A stretch of DNA of 11,406 nt, from assembly GCA_027028665.1 (NCBI GenBank), contig JALVIU010000212.1, positions 1 to 11,406 of the forward strand, in the 5' to 3' direction. Origin of the DNA: Candidatus Atribacteria bacterium (GTDB lineage Bacteria > Atribacterota > JALVIU01). The notes below the pieces were generated by a model. It did not search any database. It worked only from the letters and a program-made list of their open reading frames with translations, and was not told the DNA's origin. This document shows positions 1-11,406 of this stretch, piece after piece; the stretch's first letter is position 1; each line of letters starts with the position of its first letter. Both the position numbers and the translations under genes were made by a program.

Positions 1-2
1 TA

Positions 3-608
3 TTAGCACTCATAGCCACAGCCACAGTTGCTGTTCTTACAAAAGAGGCTTATGCGCAAACTTTAGGTAGTGGCGGTCCTGTAGCCCTCTTTGCAAAGGG
101 ACTTGGACAATTTTTGGGCTATCTTGGTATACCTCAGAAGGTAGGTATTACTTTTGGATCCCTTACAGTTTCTGCATTCTTGCTTACATCTTTAGATACA
201 GCAACAAGACTTGGAAGATATGCATTTGAAGAGCTCTTCTCTGGCGTGCCATCTCTTTCCAACAGATATACAGCTACGCTTATAACAGTAATCGCAGGTG
301 GCGCACTTGCACTCTCTGGAAAATGGACTACTATTTGGCCAGTATTCGGTGCATCTAACCAGCTCCTAGCAGGACTTGCGCTCTTATCCGCTACAGTATG
401 GCTTGCGCATACCGGTAGAAAGAATTGGGCTACATTTTGGCCGATGGTATTTATGTTCATAGTAACTATTTCTGCTCTTATACTCCTTGCTGTAAATAAC
501 TATAAAGCAGGAAATTCATTGCTTGGCACTGTAGCACTTATCTTATTAGTACTTGCTCTATTTATGATTATCGAGGCGCTCTTTAAGAAGAAACCTCAAG
601 AGGCATAA
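3..608 (+). CDS. cstA: CstA-family carbon starvation / peptide-pyruvate transporter, C-terminal part
   Basis: The frame is open from base 3 at the window edge to the TAA at 606-608, so about 201 codons of the 3' end are present and the start lies outside. The stretch LTKEAYAQTLGSGGP, then FLLTSLDTATRLGRYAFEEL, then FGASNQLLAGLALL are hallmarks of the C-terminal half of CstA, an inner-membrane transporter linked to uptake of peptides or pyruvate under carbon limitation. At least four strongly hydrophobic segments follow one another, and the protein ends in a short basic/charged tail (FKKKPQEA). An in-frame TTG at 114 is not the real start, because the CstA signature continues unbroken upstream of it. 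A terminator hairpin follows directly, so this is the last gene of its transcript. Family assignment is firm; the substrate is not decided by sequence. Confidence 0.9.
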   Translation, partial: LALIATATVAVLTKEAYAQTLGSGGPVALFAKGLGQFLGYLGIPQKVGITFGSLTVSAFLLTSLDTATRLGRYAFEELFSGVPSLSNRYTATLITVIAGGALALSGKWTTIWPVFGASNQLLAGLALLSATVWLAHTGRKNWATFWPMVFMFIVTISALILLAVNNYKAGNSLLGTVALILLVLALFMIIEALFKKKPQEA

Positions 609-635
609 AAAAAGGGGGCATGTGCCCCCCTTTTT
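607..635. terminator. Bidirectional intrinsic terminator between cstA and the ArsA-like gene
   Basis: Seven A (607-613), GGGGGC (614-619), a four-base loop ATGT, GCCCCC (624-629), one extra C, then five T (631-635). Read on + it gives a GC stem followed by T5; read on - the same stem is followed by T7. It sits exactly between two convergent genes: the cstA stop codon is in the A-run and the stop codon of the minus-strand ATPase gene begins in the T-run. It therefore probably terminates both transcripts. Confidence 0.85.
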
Positions 636-1599
636 AGAAATATTTGGTAATTTCTTCTAATATCTCTATCCCATAAACATCTCTTTCTAATAAGGGAATA
701 TATGTAAGGATGAGATTGTTAAAATTTGTTTTTATAAGATTCAGGTATTCTTTTTCTACTTCTTTTCTCTTTCTAAGAAATTCTCCTGTCTTTTCGGGAA
801 GTATCCTATTTACTATTATACCTCCTATAGGTATCTTATATTTAGAGAGAATCTCTATGGCCTTTTTTGTCTCTATTATAGGAAGCCTCTCTGGATTTAG
901 TACAAATATATAAGAGGTAAATTCTTTATTTAAGAGTAGTTTTCTTGCATCCTGAAACTTTTGTTTTCTTACCTTTAAGATCCTGAGAATAGGATCATCA
1001 TCCATCCTTATATCTACACCTTCTTTTATCTTTTTTACGCTTTTCTTTAGAGAAAGCGCCACCCTTCTTTTCTTAAAAAGATTATCTATCCATTTTTCCA
1101 GGATCTCGGGCAGTGAGAGTAGTCTTAGTGTATGTCCTGTAGGCGCTGTGTCAAATACAATTATATCGTATGTTCCTTCATCAATTCTATTCATAAGTTC
1201 TATGAATTTATCAAATGTTGCCCCCTCTTCTGCTCCAGGAGAAAGATATGCAACATCTATTTGCCTTTTTATCTCATCCATGAGTATGGGACTTATAGTT
1301 TTTGAGAGACTATTTTTTATTCTATTTATGTAGTTTTTTGCCTCAAGCTCAGGGTCAATTTCTATACCCCATAGATTTTCCTTTATTAATTTTTCCCGGG
1401 GCCCAATATCTATCTTAAATATATCTCCTATAGAATGTGCAGGATCAGTAGAGACAAGTAAAACCCTTTTCCCACAGGATGAGGCGAAAATAGAAAAGGC
1501 AGAGGCAGATGTGGTCTTTCCTACCCCTCCTTTTCCCCCAAAAAATAAAAATTTTTTATTTAAAAACTGCTTCATTTTATTTTTATGGACTAAAGTCAT
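634..1599 (-). CDS. ArsA/GET3-family P-loop ATPase
   Basis: Cytosolic single-domain ATPase of about 321 aa. From the ATG at 1599: a deviant Walker A motif GGKGGVGKTT at residues 21-30, switch I STDPAHS at about 50-56, SPGAEEGATF at about 120-129, switch II FDTAPTGHTLRLLSLP at about 149-164, and the NPERLPIIET segment typical of the ArsA C-terminal half. The ATG at 1599 is chosen because AAAGGT lies 9 bases upstream; a TTG at 1608 and an ATG at 1575 are possible but less supported. The gene overlaps the upstream 99-aa gene by 17 bases, implying translational coupling. No ArsB, ArsR or ArsD neighbour is present and no CxxC pair of the GET3 type is visible (the single Cys is residue 42). Arsenite efflux and tail-anchored protein insertion are therefore both unproven; family membership is secure, function is not. 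Confidence 0.88.
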   Translation of the reverse strand: MTLVHKNKMKQFLNKKFLFFGGKGGVGKTTSASAFSIFASSCGKRVLLVSTDPAHSIGDIFKIDIGPREKLIKENLWGIEIDPELEAKNYINRIKNSLSKTISPILMDEIKRQIDVAYLSPGAEEGATFDKFIELMNRIDEGTYDIIVFDTAPTGHTLRLLSLPEILEKWIDNLFKKRRVALSLKKSVKKIKEGVDIRMDDDPILRILKVRKQKFQDARKLLLNKEFTSYIFVLNPERLPIIETKKAIEILSKYKIPIGGIIVNRILPEKTGEFLRKRKEVEKEYLNLIKTNFNNLILTYIPLLERDVYGIEILEEITKYF

Positions 1600-1882
1600 G
1601 CTTACCAAACCTTTCTGAGAGTACCTCTCTCTTTCTTAGCATTCTTGTCTCCCAATTTTCCATATCTTCTGCTATGTAAGGTAGAAGTTCCATGGTATAA
1701 TAAGACACAGGATTAGGAATCCCTAACAAATCAGAAAACAAAAGAAGCATATATAAATCTTCCTGCTCATATGCTTCTTTTTCCAGAAGATCAACAGCAG
1801 ATTCTATAAAAAATCCGTACATAAAATCTTTGATATCTATAATAACTCTCTTTATTTTATCTACAATCTCTGTTTTTTGCAT
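1583..1882 (-). CDS. Small helical protein coupled to the ArsA-like ATPase, function unknown
   Basis: A 99-aa protein with no cysteines. It is predicted mostly helical: an amphipathic N-terminal helix, a Glu-rich stretch (LLEKEAYEQEDLYMLLLF), a hydrophobic LLGIPNPVSYYTMELLPY core at about residues 52-69, and a charged C-terminus. I do not recognise a named domain. From memory, short proteins with a similar GIPNP-x-SYYT-x-ELLPY core occur next to ArsA-family ATPases in other bacteria; this is unverified. The start at 1882 is supported by a consensus promoter whose -10 box ends six bases before the ATG, so the mRNA is probably leaderless; there is no room for a Shine-Dalgarno site. Its 3' end overlaps the ATPase gene, which argues for a joint role, for example as an ATPase partner or client. 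Confidence 0.8.
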   Translation of the reverse strand: MQKTEIVDKIKRVIIDIKDFMYGFFIESAVDLLEKEAYEQEDLYMLLLFSDLLGIPNPVSYYTMELLPYIAEDMENWETRMLRKREVLSERFGKHDFSP

Positions 1883-1888
1883 GGTAAA

Positions 1889-1917
1889 ATTATAACATGT
1901 AATTTATTATTTTTCAA
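1889..1917 (-). promoter_or_regulatory. Sigma-70-type promoter giving a predicted leaderless mRNA
   Basis: On the minus strand TTGAAA (1917-1912), a 17-base spacer, then a perfect TATAAT (1894-1889), then TTTACC and the ATG at 1882. A start point about seven bases past the -10 box falls on or next to the A of the ATG. This is the promoter of the 99-aa gene and ArsA-like ATPase unit. The box match is direct; the leaderless state is inferred. Confidence 0.85.
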
Positions 1918-1945
1918 CGATAAGTTCTTTAAAGGAGGAACTACT

Positions 1946-2590
1946 ATGGGATCACCGAGAAGTAAAGTGGAGGTAAAAGGTTTTGAGGCAAAATATTACG
2001 ATTTTCTTATGGATATATTAACTTTTGGGGCCTATAAAAAGACAATGGAGAAAGCTATTGAGCTTATGGGTATAAGTGAGAATGATAAGATTTTAGACCT
2101 CGGATCAGGTACTGGTAGAAATGCCTGTATTATGAGGAAATATATAAAGGACCAGGGAGAAATTGTGGGGCTTGATATATCTGATATTATGATAGAAAAA
2201 TCGAAAAAGAGATGTAGAAACTATGATAATGTTCGATTTGAAAAAGCAAGAATAGAAGAAGAACTTCCATATAGAGAGTATTTCGACAAGGCCTTTATCT
2301 CTTTTGTACTTCATGGATTTGAGCAAGAGGATAGAGAAAAAATTTTGAAAAATATACATTTTGCACTAAAACCTAAAGGAGAGCTTTTCATTTTGGATTA
2401 TACTCATGCACATCCAAGAGAGGTGCAGGGTATATATAAAATATTTTTAACCAAATTAGAATGCCCTTTGGCATATGAATTTGTAATATTGGATCAAGAG
2501 GCCTTTCTTAAGGAGTTTGGTTTCTCTAATTTCTCCTATAACTATTTCTTCTATAAAAGGGTAAATCTTTTAAAGGCTATCAAAAATTAA
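1946..2590 (+). CDS. Class I SAM-dependent methyltransferase (UbiE-like)
   Basis: A 214-aa protein with the Rossmann-type methyltransferase order. Motif I ILDLGSGTGRN is at residues 49-59, the acidic ribose-binding end of strand 2 is GLDIS at 75-79, the motif IV region holds FDKAFISFVLHGF, and post-motif LKPKGELFILDYTH follows. The frame stays open upstream to an ATG at 1877, but the ATG at 1946 is chosen because AAAGGAGG (1931-1938) lies seven bases before it and the upstream stretch has no family-like sequence. The substrate cannot be told; UbiE/COQ5-type enzymes methylate quinone rings, but many relatives act on other small molecules. It is divergent from the ArsA-like unit across a 63-base gap with no convincing plus-strand promoter hexamers. 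No terminator separates it from the sigma factor gene 40 bases downstream, so they may be cotranscribed. Confidence 0.85.
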   Translation: MGSPRSKVEVKGFEAKYYDFLMDILTFGAYKKTMEKAIELMGISENDKILDLGSGTGRNACIMRKYIKDQGEIVGLDISDIMIEKSKKRCRNYDNVRFEKARIEEELPYREYFDKAFISFVLHGFEQEDREKILKNIHFALKPKGELFILDYTHAHPREVQGIYKIFLTKLECPLAYEFVILDQEAFLKEFGFSNFSYNYFFYKRVNLLKAIKN

Positions 2591-2630
2591 TTTTACCTTT
2601 TTTGAAATTGGGAATCTAATAAAGTAGAAA

Positions 2631-3176
2631 ATGAAAACCGATGAAGAGCTTATTGAAAAAATTAAAGATGGTAATATAGCTGCTTTTGAAGAGATAATAA
2701 CAAGATATAAAGCGAAGATTTATAAAATTATTTTTAGTATTATTAGAGATCCTCAAGATGCAGAAGATCTGGTACAGGAGGTCTTTATTAAGGTATATAA
2801 TTCTATTAGAAAATTTCGGGGAAGATCGCGCTTTTATACATGGTTATATCGAATAACAGTAAATGTAGCTCTCAATTATCTTAGAAAGAATAAAAAGAAC
2901 CTGGAGTTTATAGATGATATCGGATTTTCTTTAAAGGAGAGAGAAATAGAAGAACATATATATACGCAAGAGATTGTGAAAGAGATATTTGATTTGGCAA
3001 ATGCCCTGCCAAAGAAGGAAAAATTGATCTTTATTTTGAAATTTCAAAATGGTCTATCTAATAAAGAGATAAGTGAGGTGCTGGGTCTTTCACGGGATAG
3101 TGTTAAGGCTAATCTGTATCATGCATTAAAAAAGATGAGAAAATCTCTTAGAGAGAAGGGATTTTTGGGGGATTAG
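2631..3176 (+). CDS. ECF-type (group 4) RNA polymerase sigma factor
   Basis: A 181-aa protein with only sigma regions 2 and 4, as in extracytoplasmic-function sigma factors. Region 2 covers about residues 15-88, with the core-binding motif DPQDAEDLVQEVFIKVY and the promoter-melting segment FYTWLYRITVNVALNYLRK. A variable linker follows (about 90-120). Region 4 covers about 122-173, with LPKKEKLIFILKF and the helix-turn-helix LSNKEISEVLGLSRDSVKANL. The start fits the usual ECF N-terminus (DEELIEKIKDGN-x-x-AFEE), yet no good Shine-Dalgarno sequence precedes the ATG. A TTGAAA at 2602-2607 is present but its paired -10 region (TAGAAA) abuts the start codon, so a dedicated promoter is not established. 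The next gene starts two bases after the stop and encodes the likely anti-sigma factor. Confidence 0.93.
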   Translation: MKTDEELIEKIKDGNIAAFEEIITRYKAKIYKIIFSIIRDPQDAEDLVQEVFIKVYNSIRKFRGRSRFYTWLYRITVNVALNYLRKNKKNLEFIDDIGFSLKEREIEEHIYTQEIVKEIFDLANALPKKEKLIFILKFQNGLSNKEISEVLGLSRDSVKANLYHALKKMRKSLREKGFLGD

Positions 3177-3178
3177 TT

Positions 3179-3571
3179 ATGGATAAAAAGGAGTTTAGGG
3201 ATCTAAGATTTATAATGTCGGTCCTTGATAAGTCGAGAAAGAAAGATATAGAGGTACCAGAACTTGAAAATTTAGAATCTGAGGTATTAAGACAGGTAGA
3301 GGTAAGAGAATTAAAAAAAGAGATAAATATTTTAAGAAGACTAGAGTACGGCTTGGTTATAGGTATTTTTCTTTTATTTGTTTTATTATTTCCTCGAGGA
3401 ATGTATGACAGGATAAAGAGCTCTTATCCTGGAACTACTATAGCATCATCAAGTATTGAAGATGTTATATATGAGGTACAAAGAGAGATAAGTTCATATC
3501 TGGATGAGGAATATGAATTGAATTCTCTGGGTTTAGAGAACATGCTTTTGGATTATGAAGATACTTACTAA
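3179..3571 (+). CDS. Putative single-pass membrane anti-sigma factor
   Basis: A 130-aa protein with a charged cytosolic N-terminus (about residues 1-56, helical and rich in Lys and Glu). One transmembrane segment follows at about 57-72 (YGLVIGIFLLFVLLFP), then a Ser/Glu/Tyr-rich extracytoplasmic tail of about 55 residues. There is no zinc-binding HxxxCxxC motif, so it is not of the ZAS type and its sequence alone does not prove the role. The call rests on topology, size and position immediately after an ECF sigma gene with a two-base gap. By analogy the N-terminus would hold the sigma factor at the membrane until an envelope signal releases it. An alternative is an unrelated small membrane protein. 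Confidence 0.65.
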   Translation: MDKKEFRDLRFIMSVLDKSRKKDIEVPELENLESEVLRQVEVRELKKEINILRRLEYGLVIGIFLLFVLLFPRGMYDRIKSSYPGTTIASSSIEDVIYEVQREISSYLDEEYELNSLGLENMLLDYEDTY

Positions 3572-3583
3572 GGAGGTGTTAAT

Positions 3584-4102
3584 ATGAAGAGAAATATAGT
3601 TTTGTTTCTTGTGGTAAGCTTTATAGTATTAAGTTTGGGGACTCTTGCTATGGCACAGCCTAAAAATGTACCTGAAAGACCTCAAAAACCTTTAATTGGT
3701 AAAGATGGAGAGTTTGTAGAGGTATTATGGCTATGGGAGTTGACCAAGGCCTTAAATTTAAATGAAGAAAAGCTTGCACTACTCATTCCTAAGCTCAAGA
3801 AATTTAATGATTTAAGAAAAGAGACTGCACAGGCGAGGAAAAAGACCTTATTTGAGTTAAGAGATGCTCTAAAGAATAATAAAGACGATGCCACTATAGA
3901 GGCTATTTTGGGCAAATTGGATAAATTAGAAAAGGATTTTCTAAAACAGAGAGAGGCTATAGAACAGGAGATAAAATCTGTACTTACTGTAAAGGAATGG
4001 GCACAGTATATTCTCTTAAGAGAAAACTTTGAGAGAAAACTCAAGGCCTTTTTATTAAATAATGCAAAATTAAGGGAAAAGAAGATCCCCAAAAAAAGAT
4101 AA
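3584..4102 (+). CDS. Secreted Spy/CpxP/ZraP-like helical protein
   Basis: A 172-aa protein with a clear signal peptide: KR at the N-terminus, a hydrophobic core at about residues 5-21, and a likely signal peptidase I site AMA/QP after residue 24. The mature part is almost wholly helical and highly charged. LNLNEEKLALLIPKLKKF at about 57-74 and SVLTVKEWAQYILLRENF at about 132-149 are placed like the two LTxxQ-type helices of the Spy/CpxP/ZraP superfamily. These are extracytoplasmic chaperones or metal sensors. There are no cysteines and almost no histidines, so metal sensing is less likely than a chaperone or misfolding sensor. A strong SD (AAGGAGG) overlaps the stop of the anti-sigma gene. 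As third gene after a sigma/anti-sigma pair it may be the signal input or the main output. Similarity is by motif and shape only. Confidence 0.65.
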   Translation: MKRNIVLFLVVSFIVLSLGTLAMAQPKNVPERPQKPLIGKDGEFVEVLWLWELTKALNLNEEKLALLIPKLKKFNDLRKETAQARKKTLFELRDALKNNKDDATIEAILGKLDKLEKDFLKQREAIEQEIKSVLTVKEWAQYILLRENFERKLKAFLLNNAKLREKKIPKKR

Positions 4103-4112
4103 TAGACCTCAT

Positions 4113-4144
4113 AAAAAAAGAGAGGGTTATCCCTCTCTTTTTTT
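4113..4144 (+). terminator. Strong intrinsic terminator after the sigma module
   Basis: A7 (4113-4119), GAGAGGG (4120-4126), loop TTAT, CCCTCTC (4131-4137), T7 (4138-4144). The seven GC-containing pairs can be extended by seven A-T pairs, giving a perfect 14-bp hairpin with a U-run. It separates the methyltransferase/sigma unit from the metal operon and is symmetric enough to work in both directions. Confidence 0.92.
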
Positions 4145-4172
4145 ATTTCCCCAGAAATTCTACTTTATGGTA

Positions 4173-4201
4173 TTGACTAAATTGTAAAACAGAAGTATAA
4201 T
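4173..4201 (+). promoter_or_regulatory. Sigma-70-type promoter of the ten-gene metal operon
   Basis: TTGACT (4173-4178), a 17-base spacer (4179-4195), TATAAT (4196-4201). A second overlapping TATAAT starts at 4201 but would give a 22-base spacer. The predicted start is near 4208, leaving a leader of about 20 bases. It is the only clear promoter before the gene chain that runs to 10859. Confidence 0.88.
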
Positions 4202-4211
4202 ATAATCAGAA

Positions 4212-4225
4212 TTAGGAGAGCCTAA
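4212..4225. promoter_or_regulatory. DtxR/IdeR-like operator overlapping the ribosome binding site
   Basis: A palindrome TTAGG-AGAG-CCTAA just downstream of the predicted transcription start. Read as 19 bases (4212-4230), it matches the DtxR/IdeR consensus TTAGGTTAGCCTAACCTAA (from memory) at 15 positions. The centre AGGAGAG (4214-4220) is also the Shine-Dalgarno site, eight bases before the ATG at 4229 of a DtxR-family gene. This suggests negative autoregulation by blocking initiation or promoter escape. Confidence 0.75.
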
Positions 4226-4228
4226 CTT

Positions 4229-4648
4229 ATGATTACAAGGAATATAGAAGACTATTTAGAATCTATCTTAATATTGGAAAGAGAATTGGGATATGCGCGG
4301 GTAAGTGATATTGCCAAAAGGCTTGGTATTACTTACCCAAGTGTATCTGAGATGATGAAAAAATTGGGGGAGTTTGGATATATTAACTATAGAAGATATG
4401 GAAAGATACTGCTTACAGATCTTGGAAGAGAGATTGCAAAAGATGTAGAAAAAAGACACAATCTCTGGGTTTCTTTTCTTACATCTTTAGGAATAGATAT
4501 AGAAAAAGCAAAAAAAGATGCCTGTAGATTAGAGCATGATATATCTAAATCCTCTGTAGAGAAGTTAAGTAAATTTTTAGATTATGTACTAAACACAGAA
4601 GAGGGAAGAGAATTCCTTCAAAAATTTTCTCAAGAAAAGAGGAGGTAA
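4229..4648 (+). CDS. DtxR/MntR-family metal-dependent transcriptional repressor
   Basis: A 139-aa protein, the length of MntR, with no C-terminal SH3-like domain. The N-terminal winged helix-turn-helix (about residues 22-63; ARVSDIAKRLGITYPSVSEM) is followed by the helical dimerisation/metal domain. Aligned by eye to Bacillus MntR, the ligand positions read D8, E11, H77, C99, E102 and H103. Thus D8 is MntR-like, while C99 replaces the MntR Glu and corresponds to the DtxR/IdeR ligand Cys102. The metal could be Fe(II) or Mn(II); the presence of feoAB in the same operon favours Fe(II). A consensus promoter and a DtxR-type palindrome precede the gene, consistent with autoregulation. Family assignment is secure, metal identity is inferred. 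Confidence 0.92.
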   Translation: MITRNIEDYLESILILERELGYARVSDIAKRLGITYPSVSEMMKKLGEFGYINYRRYGKILLTDLGREIAKDVEKRHNLWVSFLTSLGIDIEKAKKDACRLEHDISKSSVEKLSKFLDYVLNTEEGREFLQKFSQEKRR

Positions 4649-4654
4649 ATAGAT

Positions 4655-5443
4655 TTGGGTGCAAAGATTAATATGGGATTTTCCTTGGGAAGTTTAAAGA
4701 ATGAGCTTATAAAAAATACAATAGCTGTTGCAAGTGGAAAAGGAGGGGTAGGTAAGTCTTCTGTCTCTGCGCTTCTCTCAGTATTTTTAAGAAAAAAGGG
4801 CTATAGAGTAGGACTTATGGATGCAGATATCACAGGTCCAAGTATCCCAAGGATGTTTGGTTCATCTGGAAAGCCTTATGTTGTTGACAACAAGATCCAG
4901 CCAGTAATTACAAAAACTGGGATAAAGATGATCTCTCTGAACCTTTTTTTAGATAATGAGGATGACCCTGTTATATGGAGAGGACCATTAATTACAAAGA
5001 CGATCAAACAGTTTTGGGAAGATGTAGATTGGGATGAATTGGATTTTATGATTATAGACCTTCCACCTGGGACATCTGATGCTACACTTACTGTAGCCCA
5101 GAGCATCCCCCTTACAGGCATGGTACTTGTAACATCTCCACAGGAACTTGCCCTTATGATAGTAAAAAAGGCATTAGGCATGGCAGAGAGAATGAATATA
5201 AAACTTTTAGGGGTTGTCGAAAATATGAGCTATGTTGTCTGTCCTAAGTGTGGAGAGAAGATCTCCATTTTTGGAGAAGGAAAGGCAGAAGAAGCTGCTT
5301 TGGAAAGAGGTATTCCGTTTTTCGGCAAGCTTCCTATTGATCCTGTTTTTTCTAAGTTATGTGATGAAGGAAAGGTTGAGGAATTTGATTTAGAGTCCTT
5401 TAATGAAGTAGGAGAGAAATTTTTGAAAAATTTTGATAAATAA
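4655..5443 (+). CDS. mrp: Mrp/ApbC/NBP35-family Fe-S cluster carrier ATPase
   Basis: A 262-aa cytosolic P-loop ATPase expected to bind a bridging [4Fe-4S] cluster at its dimer interface and pass it to apoproteins. Visible motifs: deviant Walker A SGKGGVGKSS (residues 27-36), DADITGPSIPRMFG (57-70), switch II DLPPGTSDATLT (136-147), ENMSY, and the cluster-ligand pair CPKC at 197-200. The start is a TTG at 4655: AGGAGGT, which overlaps the regulator's stop codon, is eight bases upstream, whereas the next ATG (4673) is too far from any SD. It lacks the N-terminal MIP18-like domain seen in longer Mrp proteins. Six bases separate it from the regulator gene. Loading of Fe-S proteins encoded downstream is a reasonable inference. 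Confidence 0.93.
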   Translation: MGAKINMGFSLGSLKNELIKNTIAVASGKGGVGKSSVSALLSVFLRKKGYRVGLMDADITGPSIPRMFGSSGKPYVVDNKIQPVITKTGIKMISLNLFLDNEDDPVIWRGPLITKTIKQFWEDVDWDELDFMIIDLPPGTSDATLTVAQSIPLTGMVLVTSPQELALMIVKKALGMAERMNIKLLGVVENMSYVVCPKCGEKISIFGEGKAEEAALERGIPFFGKLPIDPVFSKLCDEGKVEEFDLESFNEVGEKFLKNFDK

Positions 5444-5460
5444 AAGAGGAGGTGGATCTT

Positions 5461-5769
5461 ATGTGGTTTGGATGGAATGGATACGGATGGGGCCCGTGGG
5501 GACCTAATTTTGGTCCGATGTATGGACCTTATGGATATGGTTATGGGCCAGGTCCCTATTATGGTCCTGGGTATGGGGCACAGTACAATCCTGGATATAA
5601 TACTCAATATAATACTGGGTATAATGGTGGGTATAATCCTGGATGGGAAGAGCCATATGACTATAGAAAGATGGAGCTTATGGCCTTAAAAGAGGAATTG
5701 AATTTTATGTCTTATAGAGTAAATGAAATACTGAATAGAATAGATGAATTAGAAAGGGAGATGAGGTAA
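5461..5769 (+). CDS. Gly/Tyr/Asn/Pro-rich protein with C-terminal coiled coil (DUF5320-like)
   Basis: A 102-aa protein in two parts. Residues 1 to about 62 are low complexity, rich in Gly, Tyr, Pro, Asn and Trp (WGPWGPNFGPMYGPYGYGYG), and include a tetrapeptide repeat of the form xYNx. Residues about 68-102 form a charged amphipathic helix likely to be a coiled coil (LKEELNFMSYRVNEIL, then RIDELEREMR). This shape recalls the small DUF5320-type proteins found beside NifX/Mrp genes in anaerobes; that match is by general appearance. The ATG at 5461 is chosen because AGGAGGT is seven bases upstream; an in-frame GTG at 5452 lies inside that SD. There are no cysteines, so it is more likely a scaffold or oligomerising partner than a metal binder. 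Confidence 0.72.
   Translation: MWFGWNGYGWGPWGPNFGPMYGPYGYGYGPGPYYGPGYGAQYNPGYNTQYNTGYNGGYNPGWEEPYDYRKMELMALKEELNFMSYRVNEILNRIDELEREMR
5581..5640 (+). repeat. Five tandem 12-bp units encoding a tetrapeptide repeat
   Basis: Five in-frame 12-bp units encode QYNP, GYNT, QYNT, GYNG and GYNP. The Tyr-Asn codons place the hexamer TATAAT at 5596, 5608, 5620 and 5632, exactly 12 bases apart; the first unit has TACAAT instead. The repeat lies within the Gly/Tyr/Asn-rich gene and could change length by slippage or recombination in steps of four residues without frameshift. Confidence 0.85.
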
Positions 5770-5771
5770 TT

Positions 5772-6254
5772 ATGAGAATATGTGTGGTTTCTGAAGGTCC
5801 TACTCTTGATAGTAAAGTAGATACAAGATTTGGAAGGGGAAGGTATTTTGTATTTGTAGATCCAGATACCTTAGAGTTTGAGGCAGTGGAAAATCCTAGT
5901 ATAAATGCCATGGGTGGAGCAGGTATTCAGGCTGCTCAATTAGTTGCTCAAAAGGCAAAGGTCGTAATTACAGGTGGAAATTTTGGTCCAAATGCTGCAC
6001 AAGCCTTATCCTCTTTTGGTGTAGAGATGATAGGGGATTTTTCTGGAACAGTAAAAGAGGCTATAGAGGCTTATAAAAAAGGGGCATTAGGAGGAGGTAG
6101 TGCAGGTGGTACTTCTTCTCCAAATGTATCCAGTATGGGAGAAAACCTTGCAACAGATATAGAAGTTGAGGAAGTAAAAAGAGACGCTATGAAGATTTCT
6201 AATGATATAGAAAATGCAAAGAAAAGAATAGATAATTTAATGAAAGGAGAGTGA
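5772..6254 (+). CDS. Dinitrogenase iron-molybdenum cofactor family protein (NifX/NifB-C/ORP-like) with C-terminal extension
   Basis: A 160-aa protein. Residues 1 to about 108 form the small NifX-type domain: an N-terminal strand, [14 protein letters not shown] at about 17-30, [21 protein letters not shown], then [17 protein letters not shown]. Family members (NifX, NifY, the C-terminal domain of NifB, and the orange protein ORP) bind iron, molybdenum or copper-molybdenum clusters. A Gly/Ser-rich linker (GGGSAGG) leads to a charged helix at about 128-160 ([20 protein letters not shown]) that could be a coiled coil, making the protein longer than a plain domain of 110-120 aa. No nitrogenase structural genes are visible, so nitrogen fixation is not implied. 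It starts two bases after the preceding gene. A role in handling a metal cluster with the flanking ATPases is inferred. Confidence 0.88.
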
Positions 6255-6259
6255 TATCT

Positions 6260-6484
6260 ATGCCATTTGGTAGGGGACAGGGTAGAGGTCAAGGCAGAGG
6301 TATGGGCATGGGTAACCCAGATCCGAATAGAGGTAGAGGAGGGGGTAGACATCAAGGGGGCTCCAGTGTATGTAAATGTCCGAAGTGTGGATATACAATG
6401 CCTCACCAGAGAGGTGTTCCATGTACAGAATTTAAGTGTCCAAGATGTGGAACCCCTATGTTGGGTGAGTTTCATAATATATAA
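6260..6484 (+). CDS. Small Gly/Arg-rich six-cysteine zinc-ribbon or Fe-S protein
   Basis: A 74-aa protein. The first 35 residues are a Gly/Arg/Gln-rich tail ([15 protein letters not shown]). The rest holds Cys 38, 40, 43, 55, 60 and 63 plus His 49 in the order Cx[22 protein letters not shown]. Two CPxCG knuckles are typical of zinc ribbons; the extra cysteines could also ligate an Fe-S cluster, and similar proteins are sometimes labelled ferredoxin. ATG 6260 is chosen because AAGGAGAG lies about nine bases upstream; an in-frame GTG at 6251 overlaps the previous stop. Wedged between a NifX-like protein and ferredoxin-ATPases, it is plausibly a metal-trafficking accessory. The metal is not determined by sequence. 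Confidence 0.78.
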
Positions 6485-6503
6485 ATTTGGATAAGGAGTA
6501 AAA

Positions 6504-7355
6504 ATGATCGTATCTGTAGCGAGTGGAAAAGGAGGTACAGGAAAAACTACTATATCTATAAACATTGCGTTGTCTATAGGAAATTTGAAATTTATAGATA
6601 CAGATGTGGAAGAACCAAATGCACATATATTTTTAAAACCTGATTTCCAAGAAACTCATAAAGTAGAAACACTTTATCCTGAAATAGATTATAATAAGTG
6701 TACATTTTGTGGTGAATGTGCCAAGGCATGTGCATTTAACGCCTTAGCTGTTGCTAATAAAAAGGTATTGGTATTTAAAGAGCTGTGCCATGGCTGTGGA
6801 TTGTGTAGTTATGTCTGTCCGGAAAAGGCCATTGCTGAAATAGGTAGACATGTAGGTATTGTACGACATGGAAAGGCATTAAGAGGTATTGATTTTTGGG
6901 ATGGCCTTTTGAATTTAGGTGAGGCCACCCCTGTGCCTACCATAAAGGAACTAAAAAGGTATGCGTTAAAGGATTATAATAAGGAGAGGGATCTGGTACT
7001 TATAGATTCTCCCCCTGGGACATCTTGTCCTGTAATTGAGTCAATAAGGGATAGCGATTATGCAATATTGGTTACAGAGCCTACTCCATATGGATTAGCA
7101 GATCTTAAATTAATGGTAGAGGTGATCCGGGACTTTAAGATTCCATTTGGAGTAGTTATAAACAAGGCAAACCTTGGAGATAGGGGTATATATACATACC
7201 TTCAGGATGAGAATATTGAACTTATAGGAGAAATACCTTTTGATAAAAAAGGGGCAGAGCTTTATTCTAAGGGTATCCCTCTTTATGATGTGGATGGTTT
7301 CAAAGAGGGATTTGAAAATATAATAAGAAAAGTAGAGGATCTTGGTAGAAAATGA
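6504..7355 (+). CDS. MinD/Mrp-type ATPase with inserted 2[4Fe-4S] ferredoxin domain (first paralogue)
   Basis: A 283-aa protein. Walker A ASGKGGTGKTT is at residues 6-16, IDTDVEEPN at 31-39. A bacterial-type ferredoxin domain is inserted at about 58-112, with ligand sets C66/C69/C72/C76 and C95/C98/C101/C105; the first set ends CA, not the usual CP. Switch II is DSPPGTSCPV at 168-177, including C175, a position also cysteine in the next protein. The C-terminal half completes the MinD fold (VINKANLG, IPFDKKGAELYSKG). ATPases of this architecture form part of the ORP complex of Desulfovibrio and occur widely in anaerobes. Start at ATG 6504 behind AAGGAG. The stop overlaps the next start (ATGA), so the two paralogues are translationally coupled and may act as a heterodimer. 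Confidence 0.92.
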   Translation: MIVSVASGKGGTGKTTISINIALSIGNLKFIDTDVEEPNAHIFLKPDFQETHKVETLYPEIDYNKCTFCGECAKACAFNALAVANKKVLVFKELCHGCGLCSYVCPEKAIAEIGRHVGIVRHGKALRGIDFWDGLLNLGEATPVPTIKELKRYALKDYNKERDLVLIDSPPGTSCPVIESIRDSDYAILVTEPTPYGLADLKLMVEVIRDFKIPFGVVINKANLGDRGIYTYLQDENIELIGEIPFDKKGAELYSKGIPLYDVDGFKEGFENIIRKVEDLGRK

Positions 7356-8218
7356 TAAAGAGTATAGCTATAATAAGTGGAAAAGGCGGTTCTGGAAAGA
7401 CAACTTTGGTTTCTAACTTAGCTCCCATATTTGAAGATAAGGTATTGGTAGATTGTGATGTAGATGCACCAGACCTATATATAGTAATGTCCCCAAAGAT
7501 TAGTAAACAAGGGGAGTTTAGGGGGTCAGATATAGCTTATATCGATAAAGCAAGTTGTATTGAGTGCGGAATGTGTATAGATGTATGTAGATTTGATGCA
7601 ATATCTCCTTCTTATGTAGTTGATTTTTCAGCCTGTGAGGGATGTACATTTTGTGAAAGGGTATGTCCGGTAGGGGCAATTGAGATGAAGGAGAGGATTG
7701 CAGGAGATTGGTTTATTGGAAATACACGATTTGGACCCATGGTATATGCAAAGTTAAATCCTGGGGAAGAGAATTCAGGTAAATTGGTACTTCTAGTAAG
7801 AAAGCAGGCAGAGTTTTTAGCACAATCCCAGAAAAAGAGATTTGTACTTATAGATGGACCTCCAGGGATTGGATGTCCTGTAACATCTTCTATTACAGGA
7901 ACAAACCTGGTAGTCATCGTTACTGAACCTACGAAATCTGGCATACATGATCTCGAAAGGATAGTAAAACTTGTAGACAGTTTTAATATTAAACAGTTAA
8001 TTGTCATAAATAAATTTGATTTAAATAGAGAAATGTCTGATGAAATAGAAAAGTTTGCAACATCCTTAAAGATTCCAGTAATAGGAAAAATACCTTTTGA
8101 TAAAGTTATGGTAGATGCATTAACTCAAGAGATAACATTAAGAGAGTTTGTACCCAATCATTATCTAAATACCATTTTTTTAGATATATATAAAAAGATA
8201 ATGGAGGCTGTTGTATGA
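7352..8218 (+). CDS. MinD/Mrp-type ATPase with inserted 2[4Fe-4S] ferredoxin domain (second paralogue)
   Basis: A 288-aa paralogue of the preceding gene with the same domain order. Walker A SGKGGSGKTT is at residues 9-18, VDCDVDAPD at 33-41. The ferredoxin insert carries C69/C72/C75/C79 and C95/C98/C101/C105; the first set ends CR. Switch II is IDGPPGIGCPV with the conserved extra cysteine. The end of the fold shows VINKFDLN and KIPFDKVMVDALTQ. It overlaps the upstream gene by four bases (ATGA) and the downstream transporter gene by four bases. The conserved cysteine after PPG in both paralogues is absent from the Mrp earlier in the operon (PPGTSD), so these two form a distinct subfamily. Nucleotide-dependent electron or cluster transfer is a reasonable but untested role. 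Confidence 0.92.
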   Translation: MIKSIAIISGKGGSGKTTLVSNLAPIFEDKVLVDCDVDAPDLYIVMSPKISKQGEFRGSDIAYIDKASCIECGMCIDVCRFDAISPSYVVDFSACEGCTFCERVCPVGAIEMKERIAGDWFIGNTRFGPMVYAKLNPGEENSGKLVLLVRKQAEFLAQSQKKRFVLIDGPPGIGCPVTSSITGTNLVVIVTEPTKSGIHDLERIVKLVDSFNIKQLIVINKFDLNREMSDEIEKFATSLKIPVIGKIPFDKVMVDALTQEITLREFVPNHYLNTIFLDIYKKIMEAVV

Positions 8219-8712
8219 AAACTTCTGATATTGCTAAGATTGGTGTTATAGGGGCATTGGTTACGATCGCTACAATGCTTTTTCAGATTCCTACCCCAGC
8301 AACTAAAGGGTATATAAATTTAGGTGATACATTTATCTTTGTAGGAGCTATATTATTGGGTAAAAGGTCTGGTTTTTTGTTAGGAGGCTTAGGCTCTGCT
8401 CTTGCAGATATCCTAACAGGCTATGTTCATTGGGCGCCTTTTACATTAGTCATAAAAGGTCTTGAGGGATATATCGCTGGCTTTGCCCAACCTCTTTATA
8501 ATAAAGAGACCTTAAATTATACCCTTGCTATCTTGATATTTGTGGTTGCTGCCCTGGTGATGGTAGCAGGATATTTTATTGTAGAGGTCTTTATGTATGG
8601 TATAGCTGCAGCTTTTACTGAACTTGGTGGGAATTTATTCCAGGGAGGTGTAAGTGTTGTTATCTCTTTATTTATAATATTAGGAATAAAAAAGGTAGGT
8701 ATAAAATTATGA
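8215..8712 (+). CDS. ECF-type transporter substrate-binding (S) component
   Basis: A 165-aa membrane protein with five to six hydrophobic segments. YINLGDTFIFVGAILLGKR, GGLGSALADILTGYVHWAPF and IKGLEGYIAGF are features of the ECF S-component group that includes HmpT and riboflavin-type S proteins (PF07155-like). Such proteins bind a small molecule, usually a vitamin or its precursor, and need a shared EcfA/EcfA'/EcfT energising module that is not in this window. It is translationally coupled on both sides (ATGA overlaps with the second ATPase and with feoA). It is therefore firmly part of the iron operon, which makes a metal-related or cofactor-related substrate possible. GGAGG lies eight bases before the start. 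The substrate cannot be assigned from sequence. Confidence 0.85.
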   Translation: MKTSDIAKIGVIGALVTIATMLFQIPTPATKGYINLGDTFIFVGAILLGKRSGFLLGGLGSALADILTGYVHWAPFTLVIKGLEGYIAGFAQPLYNKETLNYTLAILIFVVAALVMVAGYFIVEVFMYGIAAAFTELGGNLFQGGVSVVISLFIILGIKKVGIKL

Positions 8713-8945
8713 GTGGAAAAATTACATTAGCTGATGCACCTGAAGGAAGGATGGTAAAGGTAATAAACATACGAGGAGGATGGGGAGTAAGACAGAGACT
8801 TTCTCAGCTTGGTATATATCCGGGAGATATAATAAGAGTGGTAAGAAGTGGTGCATTTAGAGGGCCAGTTTATATAGATGTAAATGGTAATGGAATTGCA
8901 ATAGGAAGAGGCGTAGCATCTCATATAGAGGTAGAGGAGGTTTAG
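8709..8945 (+). CDS. feoA: FeoA, SH3-like ferrous iron transport accessory protein
   Basis: A 78-aa protein with the FeoA SH3-like fold pattern. It opens with LADAPEGRMVKVINIRG, continues with the family signature RQRLSQLGIYPGDIIRVVR at about residues 28-46, then GPVYIDVNGNGIAIGRGVASHI. FeoA is a small cytosolic partner of the FeoB channel and is needed for efficient Fe(II) uptake. The start overlaps the end of the S-component gene (ATGA) and the stop directly abuts the feoB start codon, with GAGGAGG near its 3' end serving as the feoB SD. Only one FeoA domain is present and no feoC follows. Confidence 0.95.
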   Translation: MSGKITLADAPEGRMVKVINIRGGWGVRQRLSQLGIYPGDIIRVVRSGAFRGPVYIDVNGNGIAIGRGVASHIEVEEV

Positions 8946-10859
8946 ATGAGAATAGCTCTTTTGGGTCAACCGAATTCAGGTAAGAGTACTATTTTTAATA
9001 GCGTTGCAGGATATAAATCTGTTACTTCTAATTTTCCTGGGAAGACTGTTGAATATACTAAAACCAGAGTAAATTTTGAAGGTAACTATTTTGAATTAGT
9101 AGATCTTCCAGGTACATACTCCCTTACATCATTTGACCTGGCTGAACTCGAGGCGAGAAACTATATTTTATCTGGAGAAGTTGATGTAGTAATAAATGTA
9201 GTTGATGCATCACTTCTTTCAAGGGGTTTAGAGCTTACTATACAACTTTTAGAGCTGGAAATACCTTCCTTACTTGTTTTAAATATGATAGATGATGCAA
9301 AGAAAAAAGGGATATATATTGACCGTGAAAAATTAGAGAAAGTACTGGGCATACCAGTGGTAGAGACTATCGCTGTAAAAGGAGTGGGGCTTAAGGATGT
9401 TTTTAGGATTGCTATAGAAGTAGGAAAGAAGTCTCAAAAACCCAAACCTCTTCTTTATAGAAAGGATATTGAAAAGGTAATAGATAAACTATTAAGCATT
9501 TTACCTTCAGAGCTTGATTCCTTAGGACTTCCAAAGAGATTTTTGACTGTAAAATTATTAGAAAAAGATACTTATATAATTGAGAAGGTTTTGACTAAAG
9601 TTCCCTCTTTTAAGGAAGAGATAGAGAAACACCAGAGAATTTTAGAAAAGACCCATGGTAAGCCCTCTGATCTTGTTATCTCTGGAGAAAGGCATGCCTT
9701 ATCCATGGATATATTTGAGCGTGTAGCAAAAGTCAAAAAACCAAAGATAAATTTTGTAGAGAGAATAGATGATTTTGTGCTCAATAAATATTTGGGGTAC
9801 CTTATACTTGTATTTGTTTTGTATGCATATTTTAATTTTATATTTAAAATAGGGGTTCTTATTGAGACACCTATTACGTCCTTATTTGATCAATTTAATA
9901 CATTTGTTTCTGCGCACCTGGGGCAGACCCTTATAGCATCTATTCTTGAAGGTATAGTTCAAGGCCTATCAGGAGGAATAGGTATAGTAATTCCATATCT
10001 GGTTCCTTTTCTTATAGGCCTTTCACTTTTAGAAGATATTGGCTATCTGCCAAGAATAGCCTATCTTATGGATGTATTTATGCATAGAATAGGTCTTCAC
10101 GGAAAGGCCATTATTCCCTTTATATTGGGCTATGGATGTAATGTCCCAGCTATTATGGCTACAAGGATATTAGAAGAGCCACGGGATAGATTTATCACAG
10201 CATTTTTGGCCACCTTTATTCCATGCTCTGCTCGTATTACTATTATATATGGACTTGCTGCATATTTTATAAGCCCTAATGCAGCACTTTTTATATTTTT
10301 CTTCAATATATTAGTAATAGCGATTATCGGGAAAATTTTAAATAAAATTCTTCCCTTTTCTTCTCCTGGAATGATATTAGAGATACCAAGATATCACATA
10401 CCTTCTATTAAGGTAGTTTTGGCAAAAACGTGGCTTAGAATGAAGGATTTTATATATATTGCATGGCCTCTTTTAATAGTGGGAAGCATTATACTCAGTC
10501 TCCTTCAGTATTATAAGATTGATATTTTATTAAACAAAATTTTGACCCCTATAACTGTATGGATCTTAGGTCTCCCCCAGTTTGTGGGAACTACATTGAT
10601 ATTTGGGGTACTTAGAAAAGAGTTGTCCATGATAATGCTTATGCAGGCAGCAGGAACCAATGATATCATAAAGGTTATGACCCCTGAACAGATCTTTGTA
10701 TTTACTATTTTTGTGGTATTCTATATACCTTGTGTTGCTACTATTGCAGTCTTGGCAGGAGAGTTTGGCTGGAAAAAATCTACTGTTATTACTATCTTTT
10801 CTATAGGTTTGGCAAGCTTTTTAGGCTTTATATTTAGGTTATGGTTTCTCTTCTTTTAA
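8946..10859 (+). CDS. feoB: FeoB ferrous iron transporter (GTPase-coupled membrane protein)
   Basis: A 637-aa protein. The N-terminal G domain shows G1 GQPNSGKST (residues 7-15), G2 region SNFPGKT, G3 DLPG (53-56) and G4 NMID (113-116). A helical GDI-type linker follows to about 275. The membrane part has about eight hydrophobic segments: the first Gate region GGIGIVIPYLVPFLIG and LEDIGYLPRIAYLMD, the motif GYGCNVPA with C398, IPCSAR with C427, and a second Gate with YIPCVAT at C596. FeoB imports Fe(II) across the inner membrane. It is shorter than the roughly 770 aa of E. coli FeoB and ends just after the last transmembrane helix, lacking a cytosolic tail. The start follows FeoA with no gap and its SD is five bases upstream. 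Its 3' end overlaps the converging DUF1015 gene by 21 bases. Confidence 0.97.
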   Translation: MRIALLGQPNSGKSTIFNSVAGYKSVTSNFPGKTVEYTKTRVNFEGNYFELVDLPGTYSLTSFDLAELEARNYILSGEVDVVINVVDASLLSRGLELTIQLLELEIPSLLVLNMIDDAKKKGIYIDREKLEKVLGIPVVETIAVKGVGLKDVFRIAIEVGKKSQKPKPLLYRKDIEKVIDKLLSILPSELDSLGLPKRFLTVKLLEKDTYIIEKVLTKVPSFKEEIEKHQRILEKTHGKPSDLVISGERHALSMDIFERVAKVKKPKINFVERIDDFVLNKYLGYLILVFVLYAYFNFIFKIGVLIETPITSLFDQFNTFVSAHLGQTLIASILEGIVQGLSGGIGIVIPYLVPFLIGLSLLEDIGYLPRIAYLMDVFMHRIGLHGKAIIPFILGYGCNVPAIMATRILEEPRDRFITAFLATFIPCSARITIIYGLAAYFISPNAALFIFFFNILVIAIIGKILNKILPFSSPGMILEIPRYHIPSIKVVLAKTWLRMKDFIYIAWPLLIVGSIILSLLQYYKIDILLNKILTPITVWILGLPQFVGTTLIFGVLRKELSMIMLMQAAGTNDIIKVMTPEQIFVFTIFVVFYIPCVATIAVLAGEFGWKKSTVITIFSIGLASFLGFIFRLWFLFF

Positions 10860-11406
10860 TCTCATTTTATTAATGATTAATCCACTTGGGAGTTTAGGAT
10901 AAAAGTCTGTAGATTTTTGGGGCATTTTCTCTAATTTTTCGGCTATATCTAATACATCAAATTTATTTGTGGGATTAAGAAAGAAACATATATACCCACT
11001 ATTTTTACATTCATCCCATTCTCTGAAAAAGTTTAGATCCAGTATTTTCATATTATCTATAATCACCCTATGAAGTATATTTACATCAAGTAGATTCCAT
11101 TTTATACTTCTTTTGGGGTCGAAGAATTTTTTAATTTTTTCCATCATTGGTATTAATAATATATATTTATCTTTTATATGTACTCCTATGGGGTGCTCTT
11201 TTGCTTTTTCTAAGAGGATTTTTTTTAAAACCTCTCTGCTATTTACTTGATGGATGGTAAAATAATTCTTCCATACCTTTAAAAGGTCTATATCTTTCAT
11301 CTCTGTCTTTATTTTTCTGTGTGTAGGTAATATAGTGATACTTTCTTGAAAAACATTGACAAGTGTAGCCATGACAAATTCAGGGTTTTCAGGATATGTA
11401 AACTCT
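10839..11406 (-). CDS. DUF1015-family protein, C-terminal part
   Basis: The frame is open from the right window edge, with 188 full codons visible down to the TAA at 10839-10841; the true start lies beyond 11406. An ATG at 11372 is internal, since eleven family-like codons precede it. Signatures: ATLVNVFQESITILPTHRK near the visible start, LLDVNILHRVII in the middle, and KMPQKSTDFYPKLPSGLII near the C-terminus. These match the C-terminal half of DUF1015 (PF06245-like), which lies near serine/hydroxy-acid metabolism genes in some genomes, although its function is unsettled. One variation from the usual motif is MPQKST where MPPKST is commoner. The last 21 bases overlap the end of feoB on the other strand. 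Confidence 0.88.
   Translation of the reverse strand, partial: EFTYPENPEFVMATLVNVFQESITILPTHRKIKTEMKDIDLLKVWKNYFTIHQVNSREVLKKILLEKAKEHPIGVHIKDKYILLIPMMEKIKKFFDPKRSIKWNLLDVNILHRVIIDNMKILDLNFFREWDECKNSGYICFFLNPTNKFDVLDIAEKLEKMPQKSTDFYPKLPSGLIINKMRLKEEKP

Follow-up and report, generated by a model that had tools for sequence, protein, structure and literature searches.

An ORP-like gene set in one predicted operon with feoAB and a DtxR-family regulator in a Candidatus Atribacteria genome

Introduction

Why should genes resembling those of the Desulfovibrio ORP complex stand between a DtxR-family regulator and the iron importer FeoAB? The question is raised by positions 4229-10859 of an 11,406-nucleotide stretch of DNA (the window; contig JALVIU010000212.1, hereafter C212, positions 1 to 11,406 of the forward strand) from a Candidatus Atribacteria bacterium of the phylum Atribacterota (GenBank assembly GCA_027028665.1). 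The source genome is a 1.79 Mb draft in 413 contigs, is ~90% complete, and is the sole member of its family among the 50 genomes of the phylum that were compared. No settled function has yet been given to ORP-type gene sets. In Desulfovibrio, two divergent orp operons are under the control of a sigma-54 regulator and have been assigned to cell division (PMC4641369), as the original prediction for this locus had correctly stated. The Desulfovibrio MrpORP protein binds a [4Fe-4S] cluster and transfers it to the ferredoxin-ATPases Orp3 and Orp4, a transfer known in the literature for this complex only, and the cluster of the D. gigas ORP protein is a Mo-Cu-sulfide (PMC6345978). Since such a set and an iron importer occur together in many anaerobes, both related and unrelated, a role in iron shortage is suggested, in which this poorly understood set would help cells to cope.

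Layout of the operon

The plus strand from 4229 to 10859 is filled by ten genes, all in the same direction (Table 1), in the order DtxR-Mrp-small protein-NifX-ZnR-FA1-FA2-ECF S-FeoA-FeoB (ZnR, six-cysteine protein; FA, ferredoxin-ATPase). The original prediction of ten tightly packed genes was borne out, with all ten in place and separated by gaps of 0-19 bases or overlapping by 4 bases; the junction distances in gene order are 6, 17, 2, 5, 19, -4, -4, -4 and 0 bases. Starts at 5461 and 6260 were used instead of the mechanical open reading frame (ORF) starts at 5452 and 6251, as both have a ribosome-binding site and the start at 6260 additionally agrees with those in relatives. An intrinsic terminator upstream separates the preceding sigma-factor operon from the ten genes, and the gene 3' of feoB is convergent on the opposite strand. 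Terminator-like sites numbered 9 on both strands in the scan, versus 4.7 expected, and hairpin-type matches within the operon (e.g. at 8546-8569) lie inside coding sequence. An Rfam search of the window returned no RNA element. The layout is that of one operon headed by its own repressor, and the ten genes are probably read as a single transcript.

Table 1. Features of the window, with positions counted from its first nucleotide.
Feature	Positions	Strand	Evidence
Intrinsic terminator, closes upstream sigma-factor operon	4112-4145	+	Fold -20.5 kcal/mol, z -5.68, U run at end
Sigma-70-type promoter, TTGACT-17-TATAAT	4173-4201	+	11/12 consensus matches, top of scanned region
Putative DtxR-type operator TTAGGAGAGCCTAA, TTAGG-N4-CCTAA, perfect 5-4-5 palindrome	4212-4225	.	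Position and conservation
DtxR/MntR-family metalloregulator	4229-4648	+	PF02742 and PF01325 above cut-off
Mrp/NBP35-type Fe-S carrier ATPase, single domain, 262 aa	4655-5443	+	PF10609 E 7e-94; CPKC motif
Gly/Tyr/Pro-rich protein, 105 residues, C-terminal coiled coil	5461-5769	+	Degenerate DUF5320-like
NifX/ORP-family protein, acidic Gly/Ser and coiled-coil tail	5772-6254	+	PF02579 E 9e-17
Protein with Gly/Arg-rich N-terminus and six-Cys domain CxCPxCG..H..G.PC....CP.CG	6260-6484	+	Conserved cysteines
Ferredoxin-ATPase 1: MinD/ApbC/NifH-type P-loop, inserted 2[4Fe-4S] ferredoxin	6504-7355	+	CbiA, ParA, Fer4
Ferredoxin-ATPase 2	7352-8218	+	CbiA, Fer4 x2, NifH C-terminal match
ECF transporter S component, riboflavin-type family	8215-8712	+	PF07155 E 4e-40; TIGR04002 below cut-off
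FeoA	8709-8945	+	PF04023 E 6e-19
FeoB	8946-10859	+	TIGR00437 491.6 bits, cut-off 315.65

Linkage of the set to iron import

Linkage within the phylum was assessed by searching the 50 genomes uniformly for an orthologue of FeoB, at E <1e-220, and for a NifX-family gene. Both were present in 15 genomes. The original prediction had been staked on the ORP-like genes and feoAB not being rarely together in related genomes, and this gene-neighbourhood survey found them on one contig in 12 of the 15 (11 of 14 if the window genome is left aside), within about 10 kb of each other in 11 cases and ~18 kb apart in one; the prediction thus withstood the test that it had set itself. Among the three unlinked genomes, one has contigs of <5 kb and two have FeoAB-Fur-DUF89-Mrp-DUF5320 together with the remainder of the set elsewhere. 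A further genome (G002, family f3), found by neighbourhood reading outside the uniform search, has a more distant FeoB adjoining the set (L126). Random placement in 2 Mb genomes would link about 2%, against which 13 linked genomes of 16, G002 included, give a binomial P near 4e-20 with shared ancestry ignored.

Gene order is better evidence of linkage than this figure, as it is specific to the family. At least three orders occur among the linked genomes of the phylum, with families f1, f2 and f5 differing: family f5 has DtxR-FeoA-FeoB-Fur-DUF5320-NifX-NifX-ZnR-FA1-FA2 and family f2 has DUF5320-NifX-NifX-Mrp-DUF89-Fur-FeoA-FeoB, while the order in family f3 is Fur-FeoA-FeoB-small proteins-NifX-ZnR-FA1-FA2-NifX-Mrp.

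Outside the phylum, an independent test was made in a class of Bacillota. Ferredoxin-ATPase 1 was found in 17 of its 26 genomes, and 4 of the 17 have FeoAB at a distance of 4-9 kb from the set (binomial P 3e-4 versus 2%, 4e-3 versus 4%); these are neighbours, most of them on the opposite strand, and not one operon. A Fur-family gene stands within the set in 7 further genomes of the class. DtxR-FeoA-FeoB adjoins or lies near FA1-FA2 in Bathyarchaeota (L045, L054 and L067 (opposite orientation)) and in Altiarchaeota (L074), and DtxR lies within the set in Thermococci (L048, L056). The tie between the set and iron uptake is frequent, and is neither universal nor obligatory.

Other genes recur in these regions. 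In family f2 a ferritin-family gene is found about 4-10 kb from FeoB (G001 C37, G015 C4, G029 C7, G031 C1), so that iron storage is also located in the region. In relatives, the DtxR/Fur-feoAB-DUF5320 region is also often flanked by a gene that was assigned by eye to aldehyde:ferredoxin oxidoreductase (L117, L136, L141, L142, L144, L147, L150, L152).

Promoter, operator and regulators

The palindrome in front of the operon sits between the -10 box and the dtxR start codon. The same TTAGG-N4-CCTAA sequence also precedes dtxR-feoAB in all eight family-f5 relatives and in the Altiarchaeota locus, and it is present in 0-0.3% of dinucleotide shuffles of the corresponding stretches. By itself the palindrome is not rare, with 3 sites in the 1.79 Mb genome versus about 2 expected by hand calculation (the remaining two are at 1713-1726, within an ORF, and on contig C372), and weight is therefore placed on its position and conservation.

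The regulator has the N-terminal winged helix-turn-helix and the metal-binding and dimerisation domain of the DtxR/MntR family, and its closest solved structure is B. subtilis MntR (E 1.6e-22). In the alignment with MntR, D8, E11, H77, E102 and H103 are retained and position 99 is Cys, the residue that DtxR has there; the predicted metal ligands are thus mixed, with D8 and E11 MntR-like and Cys99 DtxR-like.

Where a copy of the set is not led by DtxR, a Fur gene preceded by a Fur box mostly stands first. A Fur-box-like site was found 23-51 bp 5' of the Fur start in 23 of 25 Fur-led copies, and 17 of these sites have <=4 mismatches of 19, versus shuffle means of 7.2-8.1. The same genes thus seem to be under DtxR in one lineage and under Fur in others, and as the two repressors are unrelated, iron is indicated as their shared signal. 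The only Fur-family gene found in the window genome is on contig C382 (L161), where its neighbours, judged by eye, are genes for rubrerythrin, superoxide reductase and rubredoxin; it looks PerR-like and part of an oxidative-stress cluster, so that the DtxR-family protein is the likely iron regulator of this genome.

On these grounds, control of the operon by iron is a well-supported prediction from sequence. The original prediction had placed the ORP-like set in iron supply or sensing. Supply is upheld by the presence of the set alongside feoAB and DtxR or Fur in several families and phyla, and by the DtxR- and Fur-type operators; sensing by the set itself found no support, the likely sensor being the DtxR-family protein.

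Proteins of the ORP-like set

The PF10609 match of Mrp spans the whole protein, which has a CXXC motif and a deviant Walker A motif. The MrpORP model aligns to it over model positions 3-240 of 365 only (324 bits versus a cut-off of 450); it therefore fits only the ATPase part, and the NifX domain that is fused to it in Desulfovibrio appears here as a separate gene.

Among solved structures, D. gigas ORP comes closest to the NifX-family protein (2WFB, E 2e-17, residues 2-106), which also matches MTH1175 (E 7e-15). The isoelectric point (pI) of the NifX-family protein is 4.9 and that of its tail is 4.8. It has Gly in place of the Cys of the DPRFGRC motif found in most relatives. A second NifX protein of the HFGRC type, the usual companion in relatives, is missing from the window; a C-terminal fragment of such a protein lies at a contig edge (C269) in the same genome.

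Two small low-complexity proteins had been predicted. The description holds for the first, the Gly/Tyr/Pro-rich protein; the second also has a conserved six-cysteine domain. The first has no Pfam match, DUF5320 (PF17253) included, but gives a weak 24-bit match to a custom profile built from 50 DUF5320-type neighbours and occupies the same neighbourhood as DUF5320 in relatives, and it looks like a degenerate DUF5320 protein. In the second, all six cysteines are invariant across 24 aligned members from bacteria and archaea. These members are always near NifX and the ferredoxin-ATPases and are placed between NifX and ferredoxin-ATPase 1. No Pfam or NCBIfam family matched at cut-off, and by its sequence the protein belongs to an undescribed small-protein family. 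A fold search gave nothing significant (best Foldseek E 0.38); the weak matches include desulfoferrodoxin, rubredoxin and zinc-ribbon chains, by which Fe and Zn are not distinguishable.

The eight ferredoxin cysteines are conserved in every aligned member of each ferredoxin-ATPase (91 and 98 sequences). An AlphaFold model of ferredoxin-ATPase 1 (pLDDT 91) matched ApbC (Z 23.4), BchL (22.9) and MinD (22.7), and as ApbC, BchL, MinD and NifH are all within Z 1.5, the fold cannot choose between a carrier, a reductase and a positioning ATPase. FA1 and FA2 are encoded in one continuous frame of 620-651 aa in two genomes (G003, C5:41890-43617; G031, C121:1196-2962; L022, L023), and in view of this natural fusion the two ATPases probably act as a pair. 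Both have Cys175 (7026-7028 and 7874-7876) in a D-x-P-P-G-x-x-C motif after switch II that is 99-100% conserved and is absent from Mrp. This Cys aligned with Cys132 of NifH for ferredoxin-ATPase 2 and not for ferredoxin-ATPase 1. It is conceivable, as a lead only, that Cys175 corresponds to NifH Cys132 and that a cluster bridges the pair.

Comparison with known systems

Like the Desulfovibrio ORP complex, the set joins a single-domain NifX/ORP-family protein, two ferredoxin-MinD ATPases (of the Orp3/Orp4 type by domains and ferredoxin cysteines) and Mrp. Unlike that complex, it has an Mrp without the fused Di-Nase domain of MrpORP, a DtxR-family gene instead of a gene for a sigma-54 enhancer-binding regulator, which was not found in the window, and FeoAB in the same operon. 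With IssA of Pyrococcus furiosus and the methanogen clade it shares a NifX-type domain (IPR003731), an anaerobic host and a Fe/S context, and co-expression of IssA-clade proteins with FeoB and DtxR has been reported in M. voltae: on FeS2, FeoAB, DtxR and two IssA-clade NifX proteins increase together, which its authors interpret as a perceived lack of iron combined with storage of the surplus (PMC8516115). The IssA tail is Gly-, aromatic- and Arg-rich (PMC5524996), whereas the tail of the window NifX protein is an acidic coiled coil, not a cationic, high-pI Gly/aromatic one, and the Gly-rich stretches of the window are carried by separate proteins. By sequence the set matches neither the canonical ORP cluster nor the canonical form of IssA.

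FeoA and FeoB are both canonical, the latter with its G domain, cytosolic helical domain and Gate domains. As in other feoAB operons under DtxR or Fur, they share an operon with a DtxR-family regulator, and the putative operator overlaps the promoter; six ORP-like genes and an ECF S component between regulator and feoAB are the difference. Mrp agrees with the Mrp/NBP35/ApbC carriers in its PF10609 coverage and motifs and differs from them in operon context. No account of Feo in combination with NifX/ORP operons turned up in a search of the open-access literature. Every part is of a known kind, and the joint operon and regulatory placement were not found described in that literature, which is an incomplete test of novelty. 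A nitrogenase cofactor carrier role of the NifX/NafY kind was rejected, as a search of the genome, ~90% complete, gave no PF00148 match.

Proposed mechanism

The genes, the one-operon anatomy, the conserved operator and the repeated association with genes for iron uptake and for iron regulators are seen in the sequence; repression by Fe(II), the cargo, the transfer of electrons or clusters and the part played by flavin are what we infer. We find it rather probable that the operon responds to iron shortage: FeoAB would take up Fe(II), and this iron would be handled as Fe-S by the ORP-like set. While Fe(II) is sufficient, the operon's own DtxR-family regulator would repress at TTAGG-N4-CCTAA; when Fe(II) runs short the operon would be derepressed and FeoAB would bring in Fe(II). 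The ORP-like set would then convert the imported iron into Fe-S, or recover iron from it. The NifX-family protein, aided by the DUF5320-like and six-cysteine proteins, may hold an iron-sulfur unit, and the paired ferredoxin-ATPases may use ATP for the transfer of low-potential electrons or of clusters. The original prediction had named the NifX-like protein as a possible cluster carrier and FeoB as a possible direct source of iron for cluster assembly. By analogy with Desulfovibrio, Mrp would pass [4Fe-4S] clusters to apoproteins as well as to the ferredoxin-ATPases. The ECF S component plausibly imports flavin, on which the replacement of ferredoxin by flavodoxin at low iron would draw.

More broadly, and tentatively, ORP-like sets made up of a NifX-family protein, paired ferredoxin-ATPases, Mrp and small Gly-rich or Cys-rich proteins may serve many anaerobic bacteria and archaea as an iron-starvation module under Fur or DtxR, distinct from ISC and SUF, in which ATP-driven reduction releases iron from stores of Fe-S or FeS. 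With NifX under the repressor of feo, the shortage side of the M. voltae reading is favoured, and the rise of IssA-like proteins with FeoB in that organism could be read as a response to iron shortage, not as storage of excess. The placement of the set in iron regulons, with DtxR/Fur operators and feoAB linkage in several phyla, makes the hypothesis testable in cultured anaerobes.

Alternative explanations

Several findings weigh against the iron-shortage account. Many copies of the set, including those at most Asgard loci and at the majority of the remaining archaeal loci, lack an iron gene in the flanks examined; G015 and G025 have only Mrp and DUF5320 beside FeoAB, with NifX and the ferredoxin-ATPases on a different contig; and none of the binomial estimates takes account of shared ancestry. 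The regulator, nearest to MntR and with D8 retained, leaves room for Mn(II) sensing. An operon that answers to manganese shortage, with a regulator responding to Mn(II) as MntR does, would suit the conserved D8 and E11, but Cys99, as in DtxR, the FeoB transporter and the TTAGG...CCTAA operator all point away from it, as do the relatives that use Fur and Fur boxes for the same genes, and we regard it as quite improbable. Chance neighbourhood or an assembly artefact might be suspected in a draft of 413 contigs, yet the junctions with 4-base overlaps lie within one contig and the linkage is repeated in 11 of the 14 other genomes of the phylum that have both genes and in other phyla, which makes this explanation hardly credible.

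Two further explanations were weighed. In one, iron would be the signal only, and the set would make or move another metal cofactor (e.g. a Mo/Cu-sulfide) or spare iron, sharing the regulon without handling the iron brought in by FeoB. The nearest solved relative of the NifX protein, ORP with its Mo-Cu-sulfide cluster (PMC6345978), and the frequent neighbour resembling aldehyde:ferredoxin oxidoreductase speak for it; the loci that were read link the set to iron uptake and iron regulators and not to molybdate or copper genes, and we hold it to be unlikely. In the other, NifX and the Gly-rich small proteins would form an IssA-like, thioferrate-type store filled through FeoB. A NifX-family domain is present, compositions of the IssA-tail type (PMC5524996) are found on separate small proteins of the operon, and IssA homologues increase with FeoB in M. 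voltae (PMC8516115). Such a store is nevertheless unlikely: the NifX tail is acidic and not cationic, a DtxR-type operator shared with feoAB predicts synthesis at low iron, the wrong sign for a store, and two ferritin-family genes lie elsewhere in the genome. The argument that an IssA store is needed because ferritin is lacking was discarded on the same finding.

Neighbouring genes and minor observations

The ECF S component is translationally coupled between the ferredoxin-ATPases and feoA, a position in which it was not seen in relatives, and may link flavin uptake to iron shortage. A riboflavin-type protein suits low-iron physiology because C. difficile raises flavodoxin and riboflavin synthesis at low iron (PMC6311696).

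The upstream operon (2631-4102) encodes an ECF sigma factor, probably a membrane-anchored anti-sigma protein, and a secreted helical protein without a Pfam match in which a likeness to Spy/CpxP types can be seen by eye. On the minus strand, 634-1882 holds a gene for an ArsA/Get3-type ATPase (PF02374, E 6e-85) and, overlapping it, a gene of 99 aa that matched no family.

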